A stretch of DNA of 64,000 nucleotides from Streptomyces sp. NBC_01210 (GTDB taxonomy: Bacteria > Actinomycetota > Actinomycetes > Streptomycetales > Streptomycetaceae): positions 6,262,001-6,326,000 of the forward strand of contig NZ_CP108549.1 of the NCBI RefSeq assembly GCF_036010325.1, given 5' to 3'. Position 1 is the stretch's first letter. Each line of letters begins with the position of its first letter. The notes under the pieces are model-generated. The model was not told the origin of the DNA and made no database searches. It saw nothing but the letters and a program-made list of their open reading frames with translations. The translations under genes and the position numbers were made by a program. This document shows, piece after piece, positions 11,492-25,860 of the stretch.

Positions 11492-12532
11492 TCAGGCGCC
11501 CGGTTTGCGCAGAAGCGCTCCGATGTGGGCCGCCGCCGTTGACAGGTGGCGGCGGGTCTCGCCCAGTTGGGACTCCGTCACCCCGTGGTCCCGCGCCGCA
11601 TCCCTGATGTCGTCCCGGAAGCGGTCCAGCAGCCGGTCGAGGTCGCGTGCCGGGTCGCCCGAGTCCGTCGTGTCCCTCGCCCACTCCGGCGCCGCGTCCG
11701 CGCCGGCGTCAGCACCAGCACCAGTACCAGTACCAGTACCAGTACCAGTACCAGCGTCAACGTCCGCGTTCGACGGTTCCGGCTTGGTGAACGGCGGCCA
11801 GGCCGTCCCCCGTGCCAGGCCCCCGAGCTGCGTGCTGAGCTCCGACAGCCCCTCCCGTACCCCCGTCGGCCAGTCGCCCCGCGCAAAGTGGTCCTGCACC
11901 TGGTCCTGGACCTGCTTGGCGATGCGCTGCATCTCCTGGCGGGCCGCGTCCTGGGCCTCCTTGGCCTGCCGGCGCGCCTGCTGTGCGTCCTCGCGGGCCC
12001 GGCGCGACTCGTCCTTCGCGCGGCGCGCCTGCTCCTTCCACTCCTGCTTGGCGCGGCGCAGCTCCTCCTTCGCCGCCCGCCACGACTCCTTGTCGCCGAA
12101 GGCGGACTCCCAGTCGGCCCGTTCCTTCGCGCTGCCGGGCGCGTGCCGTGTCTCCGTCGCCGCCGCGCGCATCTCGCTGCGCAGCTTGCCCGCCGCGCCG
12201 CGCACGTCGTCACGGATCTCCGCGGCCAGTTCGGAGACGGACTCGCGGATCTCCAGCTCGAGGTCGGCCAGCTCGCCGCTGCGCCCGGCCAGTTCCTCGC
12301 GGCCCGCGTCGGTGATCGAGTAGACCTTGCGGCCGCCCTCGGTGGCGTGGGTGACCAGCCCCTCGGCCTCCAGCTTGGCGAGCCGCGGGTAGACGGTGCC
12401 GGCGCTCGGCGCGTACAGGCCCTGGAAGCGCTCCTCCAGCAGGCGGATCACCTCGTACCCGTGGCGCGGGGCCTCGTCCAGGAGCTTCAGCAGATACAGG
12501 CGCAGTCGGCCATGGGCAAAGACGGGCGGCAT
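11492..12532 (-). CDS. PadR-family transcriptional regulator with long coiled-coil extension
   Basis: 346 residues, about twice or more the usual PadR length. The winged helix is at the N-terminus (LLKLLDEAPRHGYEVIRLLEE, then AGTVYPRLAKLEAEGLV). A very charged, Arg/Glu/Lys/Ala-rich helical region (about 90-230) is likely a coiled coil. It is followed by a Gly-Thr repeat and a final helical segment with DLDRLLDRFRDDIRDAARD. It starts one base after the stop of the DUF4097 gene, so the two form an operon. The PadR protein probably represses that operon through the site near 13419-13452. Confidence 0.88.
   Translation of the reverse strand: MPPVFAHGRLRLYLLKLLDEAPRHGYEVIRLLEERFQGLYAPSAGTVYPRLAKLEAEGLVTHATEGGRKVYSITDAGREELAGRSGELADLELEIRESVSELAAEIRDDVRGAAGKLRSEMRAAATETRHAPGSAKERADWESAFGDKESWRAAKEELRRAKQEWKEQARRAKDESRRAREDAQQARRQAKEAQDAARQEMQRIAKQVQDQVQDHFARGDWPTGVREGLSELSTQLGGLARGTAWPPFTKPEPSNADVDAGTGTGTGTGTGAGADAGADAAPEWARDTTDSGDPARDLDRLLDRFRDDIRDAARDHGVTESQLGETRRHLSTAAAHIGALLRKPGA
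11713..11754. repeat. Hexanucleotide tandem repeat inside the PadR gene
   Basis: Two CACCAG units followed by five TACCAG units on the + strand. In the PadR frame on the minus strand they encode an alternating Gly-Thr tract. The unit is a multiple of three, so copy-number change would alter linker length without breaking the frame. Confidence 0.9.
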
Positions 12533-12533
12533 G

Positions 12534-13385
12534 TCAGAGCACCTTTCCGGTGGGGGCTGCGTCGTACGGTTCGTCCTCCGCGGGCGGTCGGCGGAGCAGC
12601 GCGATGGAACCGGAGACCGTCGTCGCCCTGAGCGTCCCCGTGCCCGCGCCCAGCGTGCCGGTGATCTTCTTCGCGCCCCACTGGCCGCTGACCCGCAGGT
12701 TGTCGAAGGCGTTGGAGACCGCGCCGCTCGCGGTGTTCGCCTCGACCTGTGCGTCCGTGGGGTGCGGCAGGCGGATCGCGACCTCGCCGGAGACGGTGGT
12801 CAGCCGGATGTCCGTCGGCTTCCCGGCCGGGTCGAGGTCTATGACCATGTCGCCGCTGACGGACTCGGCCCGTACGGAGGAGCCCGCGCCCGCGATCACG
12901 GTCAGATCGCCGGAGACCGAGTTGTAGCGGAGGTCGCCGGTGACGGACTGAGCCTCCAGGTTTCCGGAGACGGATTCGGCACGGACCGCGCCCGAGACCC
13001 CGACGAGGGTGGTGTCGCCGCTGACGCCGCGTATCGCGGTGGGCCCCTGGATGCCGGAGACAACGGCCGCGGCGCCGACGACGCCGACCTCGACGGCCGA
13101 GCCGGACGGGACGGCGAGGGAGACCACGGCGCTGCGGTGCCAGCCCTTGCGGTCGAGCCACTTGAGGAAGCCCTTCCAGGGCAGGTCCTCGTACGCGACG
13201 GTGAGGGTGGAGCCCTGCTGGGTGACGATCAGCGGGGGTCCTTCGACCTGGGAGATCTCCAGGCGGGCGGAACCTTCTTCCGTGCCCACGACGTTGACCG
13301 TTCCGTTGACGATACGCACGTTGAGTGCCGTCACCGGGTCGTCGAAGGTGAGCTTCTTCGGCTCTGCAACGGACCACTCGGACAT
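12534..13385 (-). CDS. DUF4097-family beta-strand repeat protein
   Basis: 283 residues. From about residue 90 onward it has repeated short strands with the motif SGD or SGN preceded by SV (for example GVSGDTTLVGVSGAVRAESV), typical of the DUF4097 right-handed beta-repeat fold. There is no signal peptide or membrane span. The function is unknown, although the gene is commonly found beside PadR regulators. A GGGAGG sits upstream of the ATG. It is the first gene of the PadR operon. Confidence 0.88.
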   Translation of the reverse strand: MSEWSVAEPKKLTFDDPVTALNVRIVNGTVNVVGTEEGSARLEISQVEGPPLIVTQQGSTLTVAYEDLPWKGFLKWLDRKGWHRSAVVSLAVPSGSAVEVGVVGAAAVVSGIQGPTAIRGVSGDTTLVGVSGAVRAESVSGNLEAQSVTGDLRYNSVSGDLTVIAGAGSSVRAESVSGDMVIDLDPAGKPTDIRLTTVSGEVAIRLPHPTDAQVEANTASGAVSNAFDNLRVSGQWGAKKITGTLGAGTGTLRATTVSGSIALLRRPPAEDEPYDAAPTGKVL

Positions 13386-13452: not shown

Positions 13453-13489
13453 GTTGGGCTGTGTCAAGTGTCGGGGTGGCCCCTCGGGT

Positions 13490-13553
13490 CGCCATTGAGT
13501 GCCATCGGGCGCCATATGAGCCCGATTGGGCGCCATATAGGGGCAAATTGCCC
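13490..13553. promoter_or_regulatory. Helically phased CGCCAT repeats and a short palindrome before the 13567 gene
   Basis: CGCCAT occurs at 13490, 13510 and 13531, about two helical turns apart; the last two are part of an 11-base direct repeat, GGGCGCCATAT. They are followed by GGGCAA-A-TTGCCC at 13541-13553. The cluster ends 13 bases before the ATG and may be a binding site for a regulator of this gene. Confidence 0.4.
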
Positions 13554-13566
13554 TAGCGTATGGGTC

Positions 13567-14376
13567 ATGGACGCGACACCCGTGGGAGCGCTGCTGCTGT
13601 GCCGGGCGGCACCCGCCGCCGTACGCCACCCGGCCCATCTACTGCGCGAGCGGCAGCTCCTCGTCGCGGCCGGCGACGAGTGGAGCGTGCTGGTTCCGGA
13701 GGGCAAGCCGTGGCTGGACGGCGGCGAACCGGTGGACCGAGTGCTGGCGGGCTGGGCCGCGGCGCTCGCCGTCGGTGCGAACTGGCCGGTGCTCGCGCTG
13801 TGGTGGGACGGCGACCGGGCCGGGTTCACGCTGGCGTCCGGATTCCGCCGGCCGGTCGGGTACGTGTGGCTGGCGGACGGCAGGCCGGTCGGCGAGGACG
13901 AGGCGATGCGGACGTTCGCGGCGCGGCTCGGCCTCGATCCGGTGCTGGACCTGCAGGCGCTCGAGCCGCTCACGCTGCCCGACCCGGAGGCGGACGCGCG
14001 GGCCCGGCTGCTGGGCCTGATCGCGGTCCTGGCCCGGTCGGGCCTGGCCCTGCCGACGGGCATCGGCCCGGGCGAACCGGCCGACCGGCTGCGGTCGGTC
14101 GCGCGTGCGCAGGGCGCCGAGACAGTGGAGTGGTCGGGCTGGCGCGATGCGGTACGGGCGGAACTGGACGCGGTGGAGGAGGGCCCGCTGGGCCCCTGGC
14201 TCCGTGGCCCGAAGGCTCGTGTCCTGGGCGCGGCCCAGCTGGCGGCGGGGGCACCGCTGGCGGCGTGGGGGCTGCGGCGGCGCAGCGGGGGGTGGGTGGT
14301 CGCGGGGGTGGTGCTGATGGGGCACGGGGTGCTGGGGCTGGCGTACGACCGGATGAGAGGCCGCGGGGGTGGCTGA
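13567..14376 (+). CDS. Hypothetical protein with C-terminal hydrophobic segments
   Basis: 269 residues and not recognised as a named family. The first 200 residues are soluble and Trp-rich (EWSVLVPEGKPWL, WPVLALWWDGD, GYVWLADG). The C-terminus has one or two hydrophobic stretches (ARVLGAAQLAAGAPLAAWGL and GGWVVAGVVLMGHGVLGLAY) that could anchor it in the membrane. The ATG follows a phased repeat cluster. It diverges from the PadR/DUF4097 operon. No function is proposed. Confidence 0.7.
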   Translation: MDATPVGALLLCRAAPAAVRHPAHLLRERQLLVAAGDEWSVLVPEGKPWLDGGEPVDRVLAGWAAALAVGANWPVLALWWDGDRAGFTLASGFRRPVGYVWLADGRPVGEDEAMRTFAARLGLDPVLDLQALEPLTLPDPEADARARLLGLIAVLARSGLALPTGIGPGEPADRLRSVARAQGAETVEWSGWRDAVRAELDAVEEGPLGPWLRGPKARVLGAAQLAAGAPLAAWGLRRRSGGWVVAGVVLMGHGVLGLAYDRMRGRGGG

Positions 14377-14752: not shown

Positions 14753-15187
14753 GTGAACGGACGCGTCCAGCAGATCGAATTACCCGGGGGAGCCGTAGTG
14801 CTCGCCAGGCTGTCCACGGCCGGCGCTGGCGGATACGGCGAGGACGACGAGGACGTCGGCTTCGTCGAGAACGTGACCGCCAAGGTCCAGCAGCTCGACC
14901 GGCTGATCACCGAGGTGGGCGCCTCCGTCCTCGAGGCCGCGGCCGCCGCCAAGCCGGACGAGGCCAGCGTCACCTTCGGTGTCGAGCTCACCGCCAAGTC
15001 CGGGGTTGCCCTCGCCGTACTCGCCGCGGGGGAGGCCAAAGCATCCGTCCAGGTCACCCTCACCTGGAAGCTGAAAGATCAGCCGGCCCAGGACCCGGCC
15101 CCGGATCCGGCCCCGGACACAGCCCCGGATCCCGCCCAGGATCCTGCCCCGGACACAGCCCCCACCTCGGGCAGCAGCACCTCATGA
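14753..15187 (+). CDS. Trypco1-like (trypsin co-occurring domain) protein
   Basis: About 144 residues. The core (1-105) contains ARLSTAGAGG, the central helix KVQQLDRLITEVGASVLEAA, and the strands EASVTFGVELTAKSGVALAVL and KASVQVTLTWKL. This matches the small CU044_2847/Trypco1 domain found next to trypsin-like proteases in actinobacteria. The C-terminal tail is a Pro-Ala-x-Asp repeat. GTG 14753 was chosen because GGGGG lies 5 bases upstream; ATG 14708 is an alternative. Codon 10 is TTA (14780-14782), implying dependence on BldA. The stop overlaps the protease start as ATGA. It is probably a substrate or binding partner of the protease. Confidence 0.8.
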   Translation: MNGRVQQIELPGGAVVLARLSTAGAGGYGEDDEDVGFVENVTAKVQQLDRLITEVGASVLEAAAAAKPDEASVTFGVELTAKSGVALAVLAAGEAKASVQVTLTWKLKDQPAQDPAPDPAPDTAPDPAQDPAPDTAPTSGSSTS

Positions 15188-17187
15188 GCGATTCCGACTC
15201 CTTCATCGACGCCCTGACCCGCGCCGCCACCGTCCACTTCACGCCCGCGCGGCAAGGGCCGGACACCGCCGCCATGTGGGGCAGCGGCTTCTTCGTAGCG
15301 CCCGGCTGGGTGTTGACCTGCGCACACGTCCTCGCGCCCCATCTCAAGGGCGACCAGGCACGCGTCTTCCACCTCCGTGGCAGCGAAGTGAACGGCGGCG
15401 AGCCCCTCGAGGCGCAGCTCTCCTGCTGGCTGCTCGACGGCGAGCCGCGTGCCGAGCAGCGGGTGCCCGTCGAGCAGGATCTCGCCCTGGTGCAGCTCGT
15501 CGAGCCCGATGTCGAGCACGAATGTGTATGGCTCACCGACCGCACCGAGTACCCCGGCGGCCGCGGCATGGTCCAGGGCTACCGGCCCGAGCAACAGGAG
15601 GACGGAGCCGAGAAGCGCGCCGTGCGATGGAAGGCCACCGCCAGGATCAACGGCTTCGACGACGACTACGGGATGCGATTCCGGCCAGAGGCGGAGTTCC
15701 CCAGGGGCGGCTCGGGCTCCCCGGTCGTCGACGCCCATACCGGCGCCGTCGTCGGCATCCTCAAGTCCCGGCGCGTCGGCAGGGACGGCGGCATGGCCAT
15801 CGCCGCCACCGCCCTGCGCCGGTTCGGCCCCGCGTACCAGCTCGTCATGGCCGCGCACGACCGCTGGCACGGCCAGTCCCCGAAGGTCACCGGGCACAAC
15901 TGGATCGAGCGCCAGGACCAGCTCCCCGGCGCCGGCGTGCACACCAGCGGCGAACAGTGGAGCCCCGTGGACCGGCGCGAGGCACTGAGCCTGCTCGCCG
16001 GCGTACACCCGCCCGCCGGTATCCGCCCCGTCGCCGAGCTTGCCAAGAAGGCCCGCGGCGGCGTCGCCCCGCCGCCCGGGCAGCTGCTGCCCCGCATCTG
16101 GCGCGACGGACACGGCCTGCTGTACGAGGCGGGGCAGCCCGTCGCCGCCATCGCCGCGCTGCACTACCTCCAGCTGGTGGTGGAGTACGAGCGCAGCCGA
16201 GGCGCCGAAGCCGCGCCGCTCGCCGACTGGGTGGCCCGGCGGCTTCAGGAAGTGCCCCGGATCGTGCACACCGTGGTGACCCAGGCGACGCTGCCGCCCG
16301 GACTCGTACACCCGCGCACCGCCGACGGCCAGGACCGGATCGTCGTCCGCTATCCGCGGCCCGGCGACGGGTCCGCCGTCGTCATCGTCGAGCTGGAGCC
16401 GGTCTGCGACGCCCGGCCCGCCCGCTTCTACTGGCGGATCCGGGTCGACGACGGCCATGACGTCAACGAGCCGCTGCACGAGGAGCACACGGGCGAAGGC
16501 GTCCCGCCGGAGCAGATCGTCCAGAAGCTGCGCGGCCCGCTGGACGAGGTCTTCGCCTCGGTCGATTCGCCCGGTGCCCCGGCTCCGCTCGAAGTCGCCC
16601 TGCCCGCGGACCATTTCGACACCGCCGTGCACCGTTGGCAGCTCACCGAGATGGCCCGGCTGCACCATCCGGCGTATGTCGGCGTACGACGGATGGTGGT
16701 GCTGCGCGACCTCGCGAGACGAGGAGAACCGGACACCGTTTGGCTGCGCCGCTGGGAGGGGATGCTGGCCGCCGAGGCGCTCACCGCCTGCCGCACTCCG
16801 CCGCAGCGCCAGGTCCCCCGGCCCCGCCACTTCGAGGAAATGCCGCCGTCCGCCGTACCCGTCCTGTGCCGGCCCGCAGGCAGGGGCGTCGGACGGAGAG
16901 CCATCGGCATGGCACTGCAGGCCGGACACGGCATCGCCCTGTGGCACACCGACGGCCATCCCGACCACGGCTGTACGGAGTTCTGCGAGGACGTGCACCA
17001 GGGCGCGGCCGTACTGCTCGCACAGACCGCGGGCGCGATTGAGCTTCCCGACCGGCTGCGCCGTATCCGGGACGACATCAGCGGATCGAGGAACAGCACA
17101 CACTGGGCCGAGGGGGTGTCCATGCTCTACGACGACCCGAGCCGCCCGCTGCCCGCCGACGACAGCGGACCGGTGGACTCCCCATGA
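15184..17187 (+). CDS. Trypsin-like serine protease fused to a VMAP-C-like domain
   Basis: 667 residues. The N-terminal trypsin fold has His48 in WVLTCAHV, Asp99 in QDLALVQL and Ser179 in RGGSGSPVVD, so the catalytic triad is intact. There is no signal peptide, which implies a cytoplasmic protease. A middle helical region (about 260-350) follows. The C-terminal half (about 370-667), with IVELEPVCDARPARFYW and a final GVSMLYDDPSRPLP, matches the VMAP-C domain of vWA-MoxR-associated proteins. In those systems this protein is the proposed effector or sensor partner of the MoxR ATPase and vWA protein encoded next. It is coupled to Trypco1 by an ATGA overlap. Confidence 0.85.
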   Translation: MSDSDSFIDALTRAATVHFTPARQGPDTAAMWGSGFFVAPGWVLTCAHVLAPHLKGDQARVFHLRGSEVNGGEPLEAQLSCWLLDGEPRAEQRVPVEQDLALVQLVEPDVEHECVWLTDRTEYPGGRGMVQGYRPEQQEDGAEKRAVRWKATARINGFDDDYGMRFRPEAEFPRGGSGSPVVDAHTGAVVGILKSRRVGRDGGMAIAATALRRFGPAYQLVMAAHDRWHGQSPKVTGHNWIERQDQLPGAGVHTSGEQWSPVDRREALSLLAGVHPPAGIRPVAELAKKARGGVAPPPGQLLPRIWRDGHGLLYEAGQPVAAIAALHYLQLVVEYERSRGAEAAPLADWVARRLQEVPRIVHTVVTQATLPPGLVHPRTADGQDRIVVRYPRPGDGSAVVIVELEPVCDARPARFYWRIRVDDGHDVNEPLHEEHTGEGVPPEQIVQKLRGPLDEVFASVDSPGAPAPLEVALPADHFDTAVHRWQLTEMARLHHPAYVGVRRMVVLRDLARRGEPDTVWLRRWEGMLAAEALTACRTPPQRQVPRPRHFEEMPPSAVPVLCRPAGRGVGRRAIGMALQAGHGIALWHTDGHPDHGCTEFCEDVHQGAAVLLAQTAGAIELPDRLRRIRDDISGSRNSTHWAEGVSMLYDDPSRPLPADDSGPVDSP

Positions 17188-17293
17188 GGAGCCGCCGCCG
17201 AGCAATGGAACGAGCAATGGGACGGCAGGGCGGTGGGTACGTAACGGACGTGGTCCGCCACGGGTCCCACCGACCGCCGACAAGGAGCGAGCG

Positions 17294-18295
17294 ATGGACG
17301 ACTGGCTGATCTACCGTGGCGTCGGCGCACCGGATCCCGACCGGATCCGGCACCTTCCGCCGCCGCCGCCCTGGCGCGCCTTCTCCGGAGAGCCGCTGCC
17401 CGACCCGGCGCCGCCGATCGACAGCTCATCGACCCGGCGGCTCGGCGCGCGTGTCGAGGCCCCGCCCGCCCAGGACGCCGAAGCCCTCGAACTGATCAAT
17501 GCCGCCCTGTACTTGAGGCGGCCGCTCCTCGTCACCGGTGAGCCGGGCTCCGGCAAGTCGACGCTCGCGCACTCCGTCGCGTACGAACTCGGCCTCGGCC
17601 GGGTGCTCCAGTGGCCCATCGTCAGCCGCACCGAGCTGAAGGACGGGCTGTACACCTACGACGCGATCGGCCGGCTCCAGGACGCCCAGCTCGCCGAGCG
17701 CCAGGCCGACGACATCGGCCGGTACATCAGGCTCGGGCCGCTGGGCACCGCGCTGCTGCCCGCCGCGCGGCCGCGCGTGCTGCTCATCGACGAGCTCGAC
17801 AAGAGCGATATCGACCTGCCGAACGATCTGCTCAATGTGGTGGAGGAAGGGGAGTTCGCGCTCCCGGAGCTGGAGCGGATGGCCGACCGGCCGGGTCAGG
17901 ACGAGGTGCGGGTGCTCACCGACGACGGCCGCCGGGTGCCGGTGCGGGACGGCCGGGTGCGCTGTCACGCCTTCCCCTTCGTGGTGATGACCAGCAATGG
18001 CGAGCGCGACTTCCCGGCCCCGCTGCTGCGCCGCTGCATCCATCTGCATCTCGACCCGCCCCGCGACGAGCGGCTGGCCGCCATGGTCCAGGCGCACTTC
18101 GGGGCCGGGTCCGACGAGCGGAACCTCGATCTGATCAGCCAGTTCACCCGGGAGGACGGCGACGGCGAACTGCGTCCCACCGACCAGCTGCTGAACGCGA
18201 TCTTCCTCACGCAGCACGCGGTACGTGAGGAGCCGGGACGGCGCGAGGAGATTGCCGAGCTGCTGATACGTCCTCTCGAGACCAGGCAGCGGTGA
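17294..18295 (+). CDS. MoxR-family AAA+ ATPase
   Basis: 333 residues. After an 80-residue Pro-rich N-terminal arm come Walker A GEPGSGKST, Walker B VLLIDELDKSD, sensor 1 in VVMTSNGERDFP, and the arginine finger region LLRRCIHLHL. MoxR proteins are chaperone-like ATPases that remodel partners carrying vWA domains. It sits between the trypsin/VMAP-C gene and the vWA gene, as expected for a ternary system. AAGGAGCGAGCG precedes the ATG. Only four bases separate it from the next start codon. Confidence 0.9.
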   Translation: MDDWLIYRGVGAPDPDRIRHLPPPPPWRAFSGEPLPDPAPPIDSSSTRRLGARVEAPPAQDAEALELINAALYLRRPLLVTGEPGSGKSTLAHSVAYELGLGRVLQWPIVSRTELKDGLYTYDAIGRLQDAQLAERQADDIGRYIRLGPLGTALLPAARPRVLLIDELDKSDIDLPNDLLNVVEEGEFALPELERMADRPGQDEVRVLTDDGRRVPVRDGRVRCHAFPFVVMTSNGERDFPAPLLRRCIHLHLDPPRDERLAAMVQAHFGAGSDERNLDLISQFTREDGDGELRPTDQLLNAIFLTQHAVREEPGRREEIAELLIRPLETRQR

Positions 18296-18299
18296 CGCC

Positions 18300-21200
18300 G
18301 TGGACGCCGCCCTCCCGGCCCCCGCCGCCCTCCCGCCGCCCGGCGCGCTGACCGCGCTGGTCACGCGGCTGCGCGAGGCCGAAGTGAAGCCGACCGCCGA
18401 GGAGTTGGCCGACGCCCTGTGGCTGGCCCGCTTCGTACCGGCGGCCGCCTCCCGCGAGCCCGGCGCCGCGCCCGCCGCGCCCGCGGGACCGCAGCCCGTG
18501 AACCCTGCTCCCGTGGACGTCAAGGAGACGTCCGCGCCCTTGTCGTTCAAGCCGGGCCCGGTGCCACGCACCCGTATCGACCTGTTCGGGCCCGCACAGT
18601 CGGAGGGCGCGGCCGGCGGCTTACCGGACGGAGGTCTGCGGAGGGTTCCCGTACCGGCCGCCGCGGCGCTCCCCGACACACTCGCGCTGCAGCGTGCCCT
18701 GCGGCCGCTGCAGCGCTACCGGCCGCCCATGCGCCTGGTCCGTCGCGAGCTCGACGAGGTCGCGACGGCCGACCGGGCCGCCGACACCGGACTGGTGGTG
18801 CCGGTGCTCGCCGCGGTACGGCGGCGTGAGGCGCGCCTCGCCCTCGTCATGGACGTCTCCTCGTCGAATGTCGTGTGGAACAAGGCACTCGACGAGCTGC
18901 GGCAGATCTGCGAACGCGCCGGGGCCTTCCGCGAGGTCGCCGTCCACCATCTGCGTGAGGACGAGCACACCCCGGCCCAGCTCGGTGACCCCACAGGTCG
19001 GCAGCTGACCCTGGTGCTCAGCGACTGCGCGGGCCCCATGTGGCGCAGCGGCCGGATGCAGCGGCTGCTGCACATCTGGGCCTCGACCGCGCCGGTCGCC
19101 GTGGTGCAGCCGCTGCCGCAGCACATGTGGCGGCGTACGCATCTGCCCGCGCGGCCCGGACTGCTGCGGCGGCGGGAAGGACCCGCTGGGCGGCTGGAGT
19201 TCAATGCGCCGTACGGAGGGGCCGAACGGGGCATTCCGGTGCCCGTGCTCGCCCTGCGCCGCTCCTCCTTCGAGGCCTGGACGCGGCTGGTGGCCGGCGC
19301 CACCGGCCAGTCGCTGAACGCCGCGGCGGGCCTGGTCAGAAGCCGTCACGAGGCGGCCACGGGCCGGGCCCGTACGGCGCAGGACATCGACGCGGGCGAG
19401 CGGGTGCGGGCCTTCCGCAGAACCGCGTCGCCGGCCGCCGCGCAGCTCGCGGTCTATCTGTCGGCGGTGCCGCTCGTCCTTCCGGTGATGCAGCTCGTCC
19501 AGCGCGCGATGCTGGTCCGCAGCAGTCCCGATGTACTGGCGGAGGTGCTGCTCAGCGGAATGCTGCGACGTGACGACGACGGCCCGGCCGAGGACGAGGG
19601 CGGCCCCGCGTACACCTTCCTGACGGGCGTACGCGAAGAGCTGCTCGGCCAACTGGGCGCGAGCAGCGCGGCGTTGGTGCTCAAGCACTGCTCCGAGTAC
19701 GTCGAGACGCGCTACGGGCGTACGGTTCGGAACTTCCCGGCCATGGCCGCGGCCTTCCTCGCGGGCTCGGTGGACCCGAGGCCCGCGGTCCTCAGCAGTC
19801 CGGACAGCCGCGGTCTTTCGGCCTTCGCGCGGGTGTCGGCGCAGGTGCTGCGGCGGCTCGGCGCGGCCGAGCCGACCGCACCACCGGGCGGCCCGCCGGG
19901 CGGGGGACCGGCCGCACTGGTGGCACAGGCGCGCGCCTGTATGGCGCATTTCGGCGAGTACGGGACTGTACGCGACCTGGACGCGGCGATTCAGCTGCTC
20001 GGCTCCGCCACCCAGGCCGAACGGCGCGCCACCGAACGGGCCGTGCTGTACGGGGAGCTGGCCGAGGCCCTGCTGCGGCGCTGGCTGGTGCGCCCGCTCC
20101 CGGAGGACCTGCGACAGGCGCTCGACGCAGCCCAGAACGCGATCACCGGACAGCCGCAGGCGCATCTGACGCTGGCGCAGGTGCTGGAGGCGATGGCGGA
20201 CGAGGTGGAGGCGGGCCGGCTCAGCCCCCGGCTGATGCCGGAGTGGGTGCGGGTGCAGACGGCCGCGGAAGCCCATGACCCGGGCCTGGTGGCGTCGGTC
20301 CTGCTGGCGACCGCGGACACCAGTCTCGCCGAGCTGACCGACAGCACCCCACGGTCGGAGGGCGCGCGGCTGCTCCGGCAGACCGCCGCGGTGGCCAGGA
20401 TCCGGGTGCTGCGGCGCCTTGCGGTGACCGGCGCGCCGTACGCGCTGCGCGGCCCCGGCCGGCCCGAGGACTGGTTCACCGGCACACTGCAGACCGCGCT
20501 CTCCGTCGTCCATCTGCTGCTGGCCGACGAACACCGTGCCGACGGACACCGTGCCGACGAACACTGGGAGGACGAACACCGGGAGTCCGCGTTGCTCATC
20601 AGGGGCGGACTGCTGCTCGAACTGGCCCGCCACCACCGGGGCGAGGGCCCGGTCGCCAGGGAGGCCGGCGAGGCGGACCGCATCGCCGCCCGAGCTTTCG
20701 CCGACCGGGCCGACAACGATCTGCACGCCGGCATCGACGGACTCGACTGGGACGCCGTCCCGCAGACGGAGCTCTGCCGCGCCTGGCTGGACTACGCCGA
20801 CGCCATCGAGTTCGCCCACGAGGACCTCGACGACGACGACAGGCTGCGTATCCTCCAGGCCCTGGACCAGGCGCGCCGGCACGTGGGCAAGGACGAGGAG
20901 GCCGAGGCCGACTGCCTGCTGCGGATGGCCCGCGTGCTGGACCAGCGGTACGCGTCCACCGGCGGCTGGGTGCACCGCGACTCGGCGATCGCCGCCTGGA
21001 CCTCGGCGCTGCCGCTGCTGCCTCCCGGCGATCCCCGCCGCGCCGTGATCCTCACCGCGCTCGGCAGGCAGCTGACCGAGCGGGGTGTGGACAAGGACTC
21101 GGCCGTCGATGTGCACGCGGCTGTACGGGCACTGCGCGGCGCGATCGACGAGACGCCCGGCGCCGATGCTGAACTGCCGCGCCGCAGGGCCCTGCTGGGC

Positions 21201-21623
21201 CATGCGTACATCGAACGCTTCCGTGCCGAGGAAGCGGTCGCCGACCTCCACGAGGCGGACTGGGCCCTGGGCGCGACGGCCCGCGGCGCGGACGACCCCG
21301 AACTGGCCGCCCATGCCTGGTGGTACCGGGCGCTGGCATCCTCACTCCTCGCCCAGCGCACCGACTCGCCCCCCAGGCTCAGCGACGCCGCCGCCTACTT
21401 CCGCCGCGCCGCCGCCGAACCGAGCACCGGCGACCTCACCGAACGGGCCGTCACCGCCCAGTGGATGAGAGCCACCCGCCTGGAACGCACCGCGGGTCCC
21501 GAGCGCGCCCTGGAGGAACACCGCGCGGTGCTCCGCATGCTGGTCGCCGCGGACGCGGCGGACCTGGAGGCGGCGAACCTCGTCCGCCAGGAGCTGGCCA
21601 GACTCGGCGCCGGGGGCACCTGA
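18300..21623 (+). CDS. vWA-like protein with long helical-repeat C-terminus (SAV_2336-related)
   Basis: 1107 residues from a GTG start. Residues about 120-330 contain a vWA-like domain: VMDVSSS gives the DxSxS metal site with Asp185, Ser187 and Ser189, followed by LVLSDCAGPMW. The remaining roughly 700 residues are Ala/Leu/Arg-rich helices resembling TPR solenoids (for example ALLIRGGLLLELARHHRGEG). A local Asp-Glu-His repeat occurs near residues 742-760. Together with the MoxR gene it completes the vWA-MoxR-VMAP set. Codon 108 is TTA (18621-18623), a second BldA-dependent gene in the operon. Confidence 0.85.
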   Translation: MDAALPAPAALPPPGALTALVTRLREAEVKPTAEELADALWLARFVPAAASREPGAAPAAPAGPQPVNPAPVDVKETSAPLSFKPGPVPRTRIDLFGPAQSEGAAGGLPDGGLRRVPVPAAAALPDTLALQRALRPLQRYRPPMRLVRRELDEVATADRAADTGLVVPVLAAVRRREARLALVMDVSSSNVVWNKALDELRQICERAGAFREVAVHHLREDEHTPAQLGDPTGRQLTLVLSDCAGPMWRSGRMQRLLHIWASTAPVAVVQPLPQHMWRRTHLPARPGLLRRREGPAGRLEFNAPYGGAERGIPVPVLALRRSSFEAWTRLVAGATGQSLNAAAGLVRSRHEAATGRARTAQDIDAGERVRAFRRTASPAAAQLAVYLSAVPLVLPVMQLVQRAMLVRSSPDVLAEVLLSGMLRRDDDGPAEDEGGPAYTFLTGVREELLGQLGASSAALVLKHCSEYVETRYGRTVRNFPAMAAAFLAGSVDPRPAVLSSPDSRGLSAFARVSAQVLRRLGAAEPTAPPGGPPGGGPAALVAQARACMAHFGEYGTVRDLDAAIQLLGSATQAERRATERAVLYGELAEALLRRWLVRPLPEDLRQALDAAQNAITGQPQAHLTLAQVLEAMADEVEAGRLSPRLMPEWVRVQTAAEAHDPGLVASVLLATADTSLAELTDSTPRSEGARLLRQTAAVARIRVLRRLAVTGAPYALRGPGRPEDWFTGTLQTALSVVHLLLADEHRADGHRADEHWEDEHRESALLIRGGLLLELARHHRGEGPVAREAGEADRIAARAFADRADNDLHAGIDGLDWDAVPQTELCRAWLDYADAIEFAHEDLDDDDRLRILQALDQARRHVGKDEEAEADCLLRMARVLDQRYASTGGWVHRDSAIAAWTSALPLLPPGDPRRAVILTALGRQLTERGVDKDSAVDVHAAVRALRGAIDETPGADAELPRRRALLGHAYIERFRAEEAVADLHEADWALGATARGADDPELAAHAWWYRALASSLLAQRTDSPPRLSDAAAYFRRAAAEPSTGDLTERAVTAQWMRATRLERTAGPERALEEHRAVLRMLVAADAADLEAANLVRQELARLGAGGT

Positions 21624-21695
21624 GCACGACAGGCCCGGTTCAGGTCGCGTCGAAGGACCGGTACAGACCGCCTTCTCGTACCTCTCGTATACGCC

Positions 21696-21738
21696 GGAGG
21701 GCCCGGCCCCGCGTTCAGCGCGCGGGGCCGGGCCCTCC
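21696..21738. terminator. Bidirectional intrinsic terminator
   Basis: A perfect 18-base-pair stem (21696-21713 with 21721-21738) with the loop TTCAGCG lies between the convergent vWA and kgd genes. It probably ends both transcripts. Confidence 0.85.
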
Positions 21739-21757
21739 GTGACGTACAACCAACCGG

Positions 21758-24700
21758 TCAGGCCTCGAAGACCTCGTTGACCAGCTGCTGCTGCTCCGCC
21801 TGGTGACGCTTGGCCGAACCGACCGCCGGGGACGAGCCGTGCGGGCGCGAGATGCGGCGCAGGCGCTCGCCGTGCGGGATGTCCGCGCCGACTGCCAGGT
21901 CCAGGTGGTCGATCAGGTTGAGCGCGATGAACGGCCACGCACCCTGGTTCGCCGGTTCCTCCTGCGCCCACAGGTACTTCTCGGCGTTCGGGAACTTGGC
22001 GATCTCCGCCTGGAGCTCGGCACCCGGCAGCGGGTACAGGCGCTCGAGGCGGATGATCGCGGTGTCCGTGTTGCCGCGCTTGACCCGCTCGGCGTCCAGG
22101 TCGTAGTAGACCTTGCCGGTGCAGAAGACGACCTTGCGGACCGCGTTCGGGTCCACCGAGTCGTCGCCGATCACCGGGCGGAAGCCGCCGTTGATGAACT
22201 CCTCCGCCTTCGACGCCGCGGCCTTCAGACGCAGCATCGACTTCGGCGTGAAGACGATCAGCGGCTTGTGGTGCGGGTTGTGGACCTGCCAGCGCAGCAG
22301 GTGGAAGTAGTTCGACGGCAGGGTCGGCATCGCGACCGTCATGTTGTTCTGCGCGCACATCTGCAGGAAGCGCTCAGGACGGGCGGACGAGTGGTCCGGG
22401 CCCTGGCCCTCGTAGCCGTGCGGCAGCAGCAGCGTGACGCCGGAGGTCTGGCCCCACTTCTGCTCGGCCGAGGAGATGAACTCATCCACGACGGTCTGCG
22501 CGCCGTTGACGAAGTCACCGAACTGCGCCTCCCACATGACCAGCGCGTCCGGGCGGGCCAGCGAGTAGCCGTACTCGAAGCCCATCGCCGCGTACTCGCT
22601 CAGCAGCGAGTCGTAGACGTTGTAACGGGCCTGGTCCTCGGAGAGGTACAGCAGCGGGGTGTAGTCCTCGCCGGTCTCCTGGTCCACCAGCACCGCGTGG
22701 CGCTGGCCGAAGGTGCCACGGCGGGTGTCCTGGCCGGACAGCCGGACCGGGGTGCCCTCCATCAGCAGCGAGCCGATGGCGAGCGTCTCGCCCATGCCCC
22801 AGTCGATCGTGCCGTCCTCCACCGAGGCCGCACGGCGCTGCATCTGCGGCATCAGACGGGGGTGGACCTTGACCCGCTCGGGGATGTTGACCTGGGACTC
22901 GGCGATCCGCTTCACGACCTCCTGGGAGACCGCGGTGGTGACGGTCACCGGGAACTCGGCCTGGGCGTCCGGGACCTGCGTCGGGGCCGGTTGGCTGGTG
23001 GCCTCGCGGACCTCCGCGAAGACCTTCTCCAGCTGACCCTGGAAGTCCTGGAGCGCCTGCTCCGCCTCTTCCAGCGTGATGTCGCCGCGACCGATCAGCG
23101 ACTCGGTGTAGAGCTTGCGCACCGAGCGCTTCTTGTCGATCAGGTTGTACATCTGCGGGTTGGTGAACTGCGGGTTGTCGCCCTCGTTGTGACCGCGGCG
23201 GCGGTAGCAGATGAGGTCGATCACGACGTCCTTGTTGAACGTCTGACGGAACTCGAAGGCGAGCCGCGCCACGCGGACCACGGCCTCCGGGTCGTCGCCG
23301 TTCACATGGAAGATCGGCGCCTCGATCATGCGGGCCACATCGGTCGCGTACATCGACGAACGCGAGGACTCCGGGGCGGCGGTGAAGCCGACCTGGTTGT
23401 TGATGACGATGTGGACCGTGCCGCCGGTGCGGTAGCCGCGCAGCTGAGACATGTTCAGCGTCTCGGCGACGACACCCTGACCGGCGAAGGCCGCGTCACC
23501 GTGCAGGGCGACGGGCAGGACCGTGAAGTCCGTACCGCCCTTGTTGATGACGTCCTGCTTGGCGCGGGCGACACCCTCGAGGACCGGGTCGACGGCCTCG
23601 AGGTGGGAGGGGTTGGCGACCAGCGAGACCTTGATCTGCTCGCCGTCCAGACCGGTGAAGGTGCCGTTGGCGCCCAGGTGGTACTTCACGTCGCCGGAGC
23701 CGTGCATCGACTTCGGGTCGAGGTTGCCCTCGAACTCCCGGAAGATCTGGGCGTACGACTTGCCGACGATGTTCGCGAGGACGTTCAGCCGGCCGCGGTG
23801 GGCCATGCCGATGACGACCTCGTCCAGGCGCGACTCGGCGGCCGAGTCGATGACCGCGTCGAGCAGCGGGATGACGGACTCGCCGCCCTCCAGCGAGAAC
23901 CGCTTCTGACCGACGTACTTGGTCTGCAGGAAGGTCTCGAAGGCCTCGGCGGCGTTGAGGCGGCGCAGGATCCGCAGCTGCTCCTCGCGCTCCGGCTTGG
24001 TGTGCGAGCGCTCGACCCGGTCCTGGATCCACTTGCGCTGCTTCGGGTCCTGGATGTGCATGAACTCGATGCCGGTGGTGCGGCAGTACGAGTCGCGCAG
24101 CACGCCCAGCACATCGCGCAGCTTCATCAGGGACTTGCCGGAGAAGCCGCCGACAGCGAACTCGCGCTCGAGGTCCCACAGCGTGAGGCCGTGCTCGGTG
24201 ATGTCCAGGTCGGGGTGCTTGCGCTGGCGGTACTCCAGCGGGTCGGTGTCGGCCATGACATGGCCGCGGACCCGGTAGGAGTGGATCAGCTCGAAGACGC
24301 GCGCCGCCTTGGTGACGTCGTCGTCGTGCGAGGCGTCGATGTCCTTGAGCCAGCGGACCGGCTCGTAGGGGATGCGCAGCGCCTCGAAGATCTCGTCGTA
24401 GAAGCCGTTGTCGCCGAGCAGCAGGTTCGCGACGATACGGAGGAACTCGCCCGACGCGGCACCCTGGATGACACGGTGGTCGTACGTCGAGGTGAGGGTC
24501 ATCACCTTCGCGACGCCCAGCTTGTTCAGGGTGTCCTGCGAGGTGCCCTGGAACTCGGCCGGGTAGTCCATCGAGCCGACGCCCATGATGACCGACTGCC
24601 CGGGCATCAGACGCGGCACGGAGTGCACGGTGCCGAGGCCGCCGGGGTTGGTCAGCGAGACGGTGACGCCGGTGAAGTCGTCCATCGTCAGCTTGTTGTT

Positions 24701-25570
24701 GCGGGCGCGGCGGACGATGTCCTCGTAGGCCTGCCAGAACTCGAAGAAGTTCAGGGTCTCGGCCTTCTTGATGCCCGCGACGACCAGCTGGCGGTCGCCG
24801 TTCGGCTTCACCAGGTCGATGGCCAGGCCGAAGTTGACGTGCTCCGGCTTGACCAGGGTCGGCTTGCCGTCCTTCTCGGCGAAGGACCAGTTCATCGACG
24901 GCATGGCCTTGATGGCCTGCACCATCGCGTACCCGATGAGGTGGGTGAAGGAGACCTTCCCGCCCCGGGCGCGCTTCAGGTGGTTGTTGATGACGATGCG
25001 GTTGTCGAACAGCAGCTTCACCGGGACGGCGCGCACGGACGTGGCCGTGGGCACCTCCAGCGAGGCGTTCATGTTCTTGGCGACCGCGGCGGCCGGGCCG
25101 CGCAGCGTCACGAACTCGGGGCCGGCCGGGGCCTCGGTGGCCGGGGCAGCGGCGGCCTCGGCCGGCTTGGCGGCGGCCGGGGCGGGCTTCGCGGGCGCCG
25201 GAGCGGCGGCCGCGGGCTTCGCCGGGGCGGCGGGCGCGGCCGCGGCAGGGGCCGGAGCGGCCGGTGCCGGGGCCGGTGCCGGGGTTGCCGGCTTCGCGGC
25301 CGGGGTGGCCGATGGCGCGGCCTGCGGAGTGGTCACCGCAGCCCCCGCGGCTGCGGCACCCTCGGGCTTGTCCGCCGTGCCGGACGTACCCGGCTTGTAG
25401 TCGGCGAAGAAGTCCCACCAGGCACGGTCGACCGAATTGGGGTCCTGGAGGTACTGCTGGTAGATCTCGTCGACGAGCCACTCATTGGGGCCGAACGCGG
25501 CGGCAGGGTTCTTACCCTGCCCGCCTTGGTCGGTCGAGATGCTCGCGTTACTGGGGGACTGAGACGACAC
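21758..25570 (-). CDS. kgd: Multifunctional 2-oxoglutarate dehydrogenase E1 / decarboxylase (Kgd/OdhA type)
   Basis: About 1270 residues, the size of the actinobacterial fused enzyme. Order: a conserved N-terminal segment ([16 protein letters not shown]), an Ala/Pro-rich linker (about 70-150), an E2-like succinyltransferase domain with [15 protein letters not shown], then the thiamine-diphosphate E1 domain with [20 protein letters not shown] and a C-terminal transketolase-like part. The E2 lipoyl domain is absent, as usual for this type, so it works with the E2 of pyruvate dehydrogenase. It oxidises 2-oxoglutarate in the TCA cycle; in relatives the FHA protein OdhI/GarA inhibits it. GTG 25570 has GAAGAGGG upstream; GTG 25597 is possible. 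Confidence 0.95.
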
Positions 25571-25860
25571 GGCGGTAACCGCCCTCTTCCGCTTCACAAG
25601 GTGATGGACAGCGGAAATAAAGGCTACGCCTCCCTGGCCGAGAGGTGCAGGCGGGGCGGGCCATCGTCGCGCAAGTCACACCGGACGGCGGGTTTCGGGG
25701 CTGTGAATGGCGGGAAACAAGCGCGGTTCCGCTTCGCCGCGGGTAGGCGACACCGTGGCTGCGACCCGCAGGCCCGCACCCCTGACGACGTACTGGCCCG
25801 CTATTGGCCACGCCCTCACTCCGTACACGCAGAATGCGTGCTTCCGGTTCGAACCCTACG

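Follow-up and report, generated by a model that had tools for sequence, protein, structure and literature searches.

A VMAP ternary system without its peptide and STAND-ATPase arm in Streptomyces sp. NBC_01210

The stretch of DNA analyzed here (the window) covers 64,000 nucleotides of Streptomyces sp. NBC_01210, from positions 6,262,001 to 6,326,000 of contig NZ_CP108549.1 (6.26-6.33 Mb of the 9.2 Mb genome). It contains four genes on the same strand, encoding a Trypco1-domain protein, a trypsin-bearing VMAP protein, a MoxR ATPase, and a vWA protein. The locus is a VMAP ternary system, a kind that has already been described. We give an even chance to the reading that it is such a system minus its peptide and STAND-ATPase arm, acting as a MoxR-driven switch with the trypsin as its most likely output.

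Identity of the locus

VMAP ternary systems were predicted by Kaur et al. (2020; PMC7159879, cited here from excerpts of its text), in whose survey they are by far the commonest of the MoxR-vWA ternary systems. As excerpted, that system (vWA-MoxR subsystem 1) has in common with the window its gene order, a trypsin-VMAP with a Trypco1 neighbor, the MoxR N-terminal motifs, a C-terminal extension of the vWA protein, and the presence of several paralogs per genome. Trypco1 or Trypco2 is frequent, but not universal, beside trypsin VMAPs; TPR-only vWA tails are reported for FxSxx-type systems; and fused and separate AP-ATPases and FxSxx peptides are tied to about 20% of actinobacterial VMAP systems (PMC7159879, section 24). 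The window differs from the described system in that its vWA protein has no recognized effector domain and the locus is without the peptide/AP-ATPase module that its close relatives have. Keyword literature searches found no experimental test of VMAP systems, and no papers on SAV_2336 or CU044_2847.

The original prediction, made from the nucleotide letters, had named a vWA-MoxR-VMAP ternary system of four same-strand genes, and profile searches agree with it for all four families. The Trypco1 gene (14753..15187, +) has a GTG start, at whose residue most of the homologs shown also begin, and it encodes 144 residues with an Ala/Pro-rich C-terminal tail (PF19493, E = 5e-17; NF041216, 1.7e-19). 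Through an ATGA overlap it joins the VMAP gene (15184..17187, +; 667 residues), whose VMAP-C domain (16336..17163) matches PF20028 with E = 7e-37 and 127.9 bits against a cut-off of 27. The MoxR AAA+ ATPase gene (17294..18295, +; 333 residues; AAA_5, 2e-6) starts 106 nt past the VMAP stop, and the vWA gene (18300..21623, +; GTG start) just 4 nt past the MoxR stop. In MoxR, the N-terminal motifs WxhapG and PsWRxa read WLIYRG (residues 4-9) and PPWRAF (residues 25-30); relaxed versions of each pattern occur in 88 of the 99 systems placed in a tree (see below). Walker A (GEPGSGKS) and Walker B are present. The vWA core (18300..19724, +) matches the SAV_2336 N-terminal model (NF041121, E = 1e-128; 430 bits, cut-off 200) and carries a DVSSS sequence at residue 185 that resembles a metal-ion-dependent adhesion site, the corresponding DxSxS motif being found in 81 of the 99 systems. 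For the N-terminal [DE]xxx[DE]xxx-aromatic motif of the described vWA proteins, the nearest sequence by eye is EELADALWL, in which the acidic spacing is kept but Leu takes the last place, Trp sitting one residue earlier.

The predicted pairing of vWA with helical repeats stands for its vWA part. The C-terminal tail (19725..21623, +; residues 476-1107, 632 residues) has no recognized domain: no Pfam family matches it up to E = 1, and its comparison with the TPR half of FxsT scores 18.75, where 60 shuffles average 16.3 and reach 24.2. Helical repeats are therefore plausible but unproven. The similarity of relatives' tails to that of the window runs from 988 bits down to none.

Linkage of the genes was followed in 78 related loci and in a survey of 61 evenly drawn genomes of the same genus, including the window's own. 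So that presence of the system would not steer the choice, the survey used as its anchor the downstream 2-oxoglutarate dehydrogenase gene, which we take to be of the odhA/kgd type, and the site was fetched in the other 60 genomes. Two systems turn up identically in both sets (L137/L055 and L130/L047). As the original prediction expected, linkage is kept in related genomes: wherever all three genes are visible, which is so in 74 near relatives and at 29 surveyed sites, the order is without exception VMAP, MoxR, vWA. Trypco1 adjoins this core in 73 of the 78 near-relative loci, one of the five misses (L018) starting at a contig edge, and at 25 of the 29 surveyed sites. In the window's own genome, VMAP-C, Trypco1, and SAV_2336 have exactly three loci each, all at the same three places, so the linkage of these families is not due to chance. 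The two other places, at 7.505-7.512 Mb and 8.804-8.814 Mb, are further Trypco1-VMAP-MoxR-vWA systems; one of their vWA tails is kinase-like (25.4 bits, Pfam cut-off 31.7) with TPR, and the other is tubulin-like (PF13809, 3.7e-69). Over 119 genomes drawn evenly from the phylum, own genome included, PF20028 is seen in three, two of them above the cut-off. The closest match to the window's VMAP is from Streptomyces lunaelactis (92% identity).

The same MoxR and vWA partner logic occurs in RavA-ViaA, as partial sources describe it. To our knowledge, RavA-ViaA has no VMAP or protease partner.

Probable loss of the peptide and FxsT module

The locus had been described as a compact four-gene system. 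Its four genes are indeed linked, but the compact form appears to be a derived state, since relatives at the same site usually carry a RiPP-type module for peptide modification and FxsT. An FxsT-type gene lies downstream of vWA at 28 of the 29 complete survey sites, and each of these 28 also has FxsB (a cyclophane radical SAM protein), an HExxH gene, or both, as judged by similarity to reference copies; at the 29th (L137), a long vWA gene abuts the odhA-type gene. The FxsT reference, from L022, combines TIR, NB-ARC, and TPR in Pfam (TIR just below its cut-off) and matches NF040586. Among the 78 nearest loci, 74 have all core genes, and FxsT is downstream in 52 of these. Of the 22 without a visible FxsT, eight reach a contig end within 1 kb, five are like the window (L013, L014, L015, L017, and L034), six have long tails of a fused type (L055, L058, L059, L060, L062, and L067), and three (L052, L054, and L089) fit no class. 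Three of the long tails were searched with Pfam: L062 has TIR, AAA, and TPR, L058 has NB-ARC and trypsin, and L055 has none, although a weak FxsT-like stretch is seen there (71 of 300 bits).

The VMAP systems with the FxSxx/YxD module (FxsB, TIGR04269; FxsT, NF040586; peptide, NF041709) share the window's core, chromosomal site, and nesting in the tree, but all three module genes are missing at the window's site. Short precursor-like frames, detected by pattern and counted by eye, occur in 54 of 58 FxsB-only systems and in 11 of 12 with FxsB and HExxH; 44 of these 65 overlap the vWA stop. On two precursors, the YxD-tail model NF041709 scores above its cut-off (L088) and below it (L016). At the window, a 134-bp junction (21624..21757) separates vWA from the odhA-type gene; no FxSxx-type module and, by eye, no precursor remnant is found in it.

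Of the 99 systems in the tree, 94 have an assigned module state (L041, L052, L054, L078, and L089 have none), and among these 94 the state changes only five times. The tree leaves out L012, L024, L031, and L037, whose vWA is cut by the end of the contig, L079, whose MoxR is under the threshold, the partly masked L158, the paralogs L010 and L011 for their distance, and any locus that lacks a core gene. The window clusters with L017, L013, L015, and L014 (100% in the SH-like approximate likelihood-ratio test, quick search), all without a module, and the sisters of this clade, L016 and L043, bear one. Elsewhere, module-less L034 neighbors module-bearing L048, to which it is 92-96% identical by segment; by eye, L034 still begins a precursor-like frame, with its GTGA overlap and first codons, before the sequences diverge, so that a deletion can be seen there. 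A count of changes alone does not separate gain from loss, but the nesting and the L034 remnant favor at least two losses. Three results were computed in this analysis and go beyond PMC7159879, as excerpted: the fixed site, the counts of co-inheritance, and the losses.

Apparently, the HExxH gene corresponds to the metallopeptidase of Kaur et al. (2020). The one copy scanned (L121:14055-15335) matches TIGR04267, the aKG-HExxH peptide beta-hydroxylase family, in which case there may be no peptidase at these sites besides the trypsin, which could have peptide processing as a further task. An alternative role would make the trypsin the leader peptidase for the cyclophane peptide, with the window's system now working on a peptide from an FxsB locus elsewhere in the genome. 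In many precursors, by eye, an Arg precedes the YxD tail, and FxsB (591 and 460 bits) with FxsT-type genes are found away from the window's site, at 2.0587-2.0667 Mb and 8.828-8.832 Mb. However, precursors of the other module type have such an Arg as well, and the hydroxylase assignment is based on a family name; we consider this role improbable. HExxH genes are also seen in L105, L116, L129, and L142, with lone copies adjoining the odhA-type gene in L116 and L129.

Selection after module loss and a possible mechanism

Loss of the module has not been followed by decay. In the module-less clade, ratios of non-synonymous to synonymous substitution (dN/dS) are 0.25 for trypsin, 0.20 for the VMAP middle, 0.22 for VMAP-C, and 0.12 for MoxR (10 pairs), and 0.26 for the vWA core and 0.31 for its tail (six pairs, as for the dehydrogenase control). 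The core is under purifying selection in the window's lineage, and the tail is slow, evolving at about the pace of the core. A remnant decaying after loss of its effector module might be suspected from the missing module and from leftovers at other sites, such as the lone HExxH genes of L116 and L129, but the four open frames, the intact motifs, and dN/dS values well below 1 over a five-genome clade speak against it; we reject it on dN/dS, leaving it only a very small chance. The clade is a natural experiment in which the core persists at its site without the peptide and STAND-ATPase arm, which makes the output testable in a four-gene system small enough to transfer between laboratory strains of Streptomyces.

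In module-bearing systems, the vWA tail and the VMAP middle are fast: in 73 pairs matched by MoxR identity, dN/dS is 0.56 for the former and 0.48 for the latter. When the core of each pair serves as its control, dN of the tail relative to the core (tail/core) is 1.01-1.16 in the six module-less pairs; in 527 module-bearing pairs of matched synonymous divergence, it is 1.47-4.02 (median 2.28). In the mixed pair L034-L048, the tail is not fast (dN/dS 0.26 versus 0.32 for the core).

The following mechanism is proposed. An ATP-driven MoxR ring, as expected from its family, would remodel a vWA-VMAP complex that otherwise stays in an off-state. The C-terminal domain of VMAP, a putative pseudo-CHAT domain (see below), would serve as a platform for docking and gating and not as an enzyme. 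It would be joined to a cytoplasmic HtrA-like trypsin that has Trypco1 as its chaperone or inhibitor. When the vWA tail, the VMAP middle, or both sense an intruder or a stress signal, MoxR would be triggered and the trypsin turned on. Apart from the ATPase, the trypsin is the only recognizable enzyme of the window's system. Since vWA carries no recognizable effector domain and the site no longer has the FxsT-type gene, the likeliest output in this lineage would be controlled proteolysis by this enzyme.

Two published models bear on who senses and who acts. In the proposal of Kaur et al. (PMC7159879), sensing is the task of VMAP, whose peptidase releases the effectors that vWA carries as fusions. 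In the diversity-generating retroelement paper (PNAS, 2024; PMC10907252, also from excerpts), the vWA tail senses and the VMAP peptidase is the effector; the earlier reading of the window, with MoxR-vWA sensing and the protease as effector, agrees with this second model and is the reverse of the first. Both fit the window's data. Applied to the window, the Kaur model would make the VMAP middle the sensor and have the trypsin cut the vWA protein, freeing its tail as effector. The fast evolution of both regions in module-bearing relatives and the effector-type tails of the two paralogs in the same genome are in keeping with this, but the window's own tail has no recognized effector domain and evolves only at about core pace, and we hold this version to be possible without expecting it. 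The trypsin being the only recognized output left, we favor the 2024 model for the window's lineage at about even odds.

Several points weigh against the proposed mechanism. The FxsB/FxsT pairs elsewhere in the genome could act in trans. The VMAP-middle/trypsin ratio is lower in module-less pairs (0.42-1.22, median 0.72, versus 0.90-3.26, median 1.33), but the ranges overlap. The module-bearing sister pair L016-L043, which falls just under the matched range of synonymous divergence, already has low values (tail/core 1.31, VMAP-middle/trypsin 1.05), and the slowdown of the tail may predate loss of the module. The rate result comes from one clade of five genomes, whose six scorable pairs share ancestry. 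As for known defense systems, no PADLOC 2023 family covers the locus, the lowest E being that of mad8 to MoxR (4.9e-6, best stretch 32 residues), and the NCBIfam MadB ATPase matches MoxR at 2e-14 but with only 53.5 of the 475 bits required.

Turnover at the chromosomal site

Where contigs are long enough, the 78 related loci mostly have the same flanks, with PadR and DUF4097 genes upstream and the odhA-type gene downstream. Classed by a stated rule, the 60 surveyed sites comprise 29 with the complete VMAP-MoxR-vWA core (24 of them with DUF4097 also within the fetched stretch), 19 empty ones (DUF4097 within 4 kb), one with a partial core, three where FxsT adjoins the odhA-type gene and the contig ends, four with module genes minus the core, and four fitting no class. 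A tree of the flank genes was built by quick search for the 49 of 61 genomes having all three (14 of its 46 inner branches are open). It requires at least 15 changes of occupancy, versus a mean of 16.7 for shuffled labels (81 of 300 as low), so at this resolution occupancy is not clearly tied to phylogeny. Distances between systems correlate weakly with those between flanks (r = 0.33, 24 loci; none of 2000 permutations as high).

Purely vertical inheritance is rejected on this weak correlation and on occupancy changes not clearly fewer than shuffled. A core gene set is rejected as the site is empty in 19 of the 60 genomes, and a mobile island on account of the fixed site, the same flanking genes, and the lack of any phage or close plasmid match: our VMAP search returned no match in phages and two partial ones in plasmids. 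Variants of the system may be swapped in and out at the fixed padR/DUF4097-odhA site, which offers ready comparisons of occupied with empty chromosomes. From site turnover, variability, and family context, a conflict function can be inferred, and with it perhaps an anti-phage role.

In the window's lineage, the system might instead be a vertically kept protease for proteostasis or stress, unconnected with defense. Purifying selection, a slow tail in the module-less clade, and the nearest folds of the protease half, which are the stress proteases MucD, DegS, and HtrA, are what one would expect of it. The genus-wide turnover of the site, with at least 15 occupancy changes and not clearly fewer than for shuffled labels, is unlike housekeeping, and we regard this explanation as rather unlikely.

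In L142 (10173-17861), the same site has no VMAP system; in its place are a chelatase-type AAA gene, a gene that by eye looks vWA-like, and one of the FxsT family. On the linear plasmid of Streptomyces sp. A144 (L195), two serine protease genes are seen, one beside a Trypco2 gene; the product names in the 13-kb stretch shown include neither MoxR nor vWA.

The VMAP protein

VMAP consists of an HtrA-like trypsin (residues ~1-221; Trypsin_2, E = 9e-14), a helical middle (~225-385), and VMAP-C (~385-660). From the start at 15184, the catalytic triad columns are His48 (15325..15327, +), Asp99 (15478..15480, +), and Ser177 in GxSGxP (15712..15714, +); the catalytic serine, numbered Ser179 in the original prediction, is thus Ser177 of the 667-residue protein. 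The triad is intact in 75 of the 78 loci. The serine is replaced by Cys in L052 and in P0106 (Streptomyces typhae). In L066 and L075, the VMAP frame lacks its trypsin half, through a broken gene or an assembly error; the neighbors of L066 look intact, and L075 stops before MoxR. In a fold search with the full-length protein only the trypsin is seen, this one domain filling the listed matches. No signal peptide is apparent by eye (no predictor was run). The window's trypsin differs from HtrA, DegS, and MucD in having no Pfam PDZ match, in its cytoplasmic location (by eye), and in its fusion to the VMAP middle and VMAP-C.

The fold of VMAP-C was not known in 2020 (PMC7159879, as excerpted). Its predicted structure and a profile alignment liken it to CHAT/separase, with a profile score far above shuffles and 6-11% identity; the CHAT set had 29 rows over 180 residues, from 30 loci among the matches listed, and hhalign scores are reported with -mact 0. 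Cys562 (16867..16869, +) falls on the catalytic-Cys column of CHAT and is Cys in all 90 rows of the VMAP-C alignment (65 of set A3 and 25 from survey sites). In the profile alignment only, the CHAT His column is a gap, and because no CHAT His is aligned, VMAP-C is not filed as a CHAT peptidase. It looks like a disabled relative of caspase-type proteases, and a CHAT-like (caspase-clan) fold is supported by the predicted model and the profile alignment. TPR-CHAT (Csx29 of Craspase) and separase resemble it in predicted fold, in the helical region ahead, and in the Cys of the catalytic column; VMAP-C differs in lacking an aligned His, in its fusion to a trypsin, and in its low identity to them.

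Some comparisons tell against this likeness. The hhalign probability with CHAT is just 3-20%; it falls to 0.04% over 16 aligned columns with default/global settings, and is 4% (score 25.3) without context pseudocounts. Foldseek alone finds nothing at E ≤ 0.001 in the PDB and viral models. Its top PDB rows are mainly RNase H-like, over ~80-150 columns, and the VMAP-C profile has no meaningful match among PDB sequences (best E 0.23). If VMAP-C is a pseudo-CHAT, the sole component lacking a known fold would gain a structure, a mutable residue (Cys562), and a link to caspase-clan immunity.

A broader proposal, which we offer tentatively and think may well fail, is that every VMAP would be a live HtrA-like trypsin under a dead CHAT/separase-like domain, driven by MoxR, with the active-site Cys kept as a ligand- or peptide-binding residue. 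Socket variants would mostly use a modified peptide, cross-linked or other, with a TIR/NB-ARC ATPase output, and the window's lineage the protease alone. Such a bacterial switch would unite both classical immune-protease folds in one chain. Residues 592-605 of VMAP-C (~16957-16998) form a conserved HxxxxCxxxCxxxH-like cluster, possibly a metal site (C597 in 69, C601 in 89, and H592 and H605 each in 65 of the 90 rows).

Flanking genes

Downstream, the multifunctional 2-oxoglutarate dehydrogenase gene occupies 21758..25597 (-; NF008907, 2107 bits). Upstream are a PadR-type regulator (11492..12532, -; PF03551, 7e-22) and the DUF4097 protein (12534..13385, -; PF13349, 4.6e-14). Between DUF4097 and Trypco1 lies a gene for 302 residues (13468-14376, +), which has no Pfam or NCBIfam match; by eye, lookalikes of it stand at some of the empty sites.

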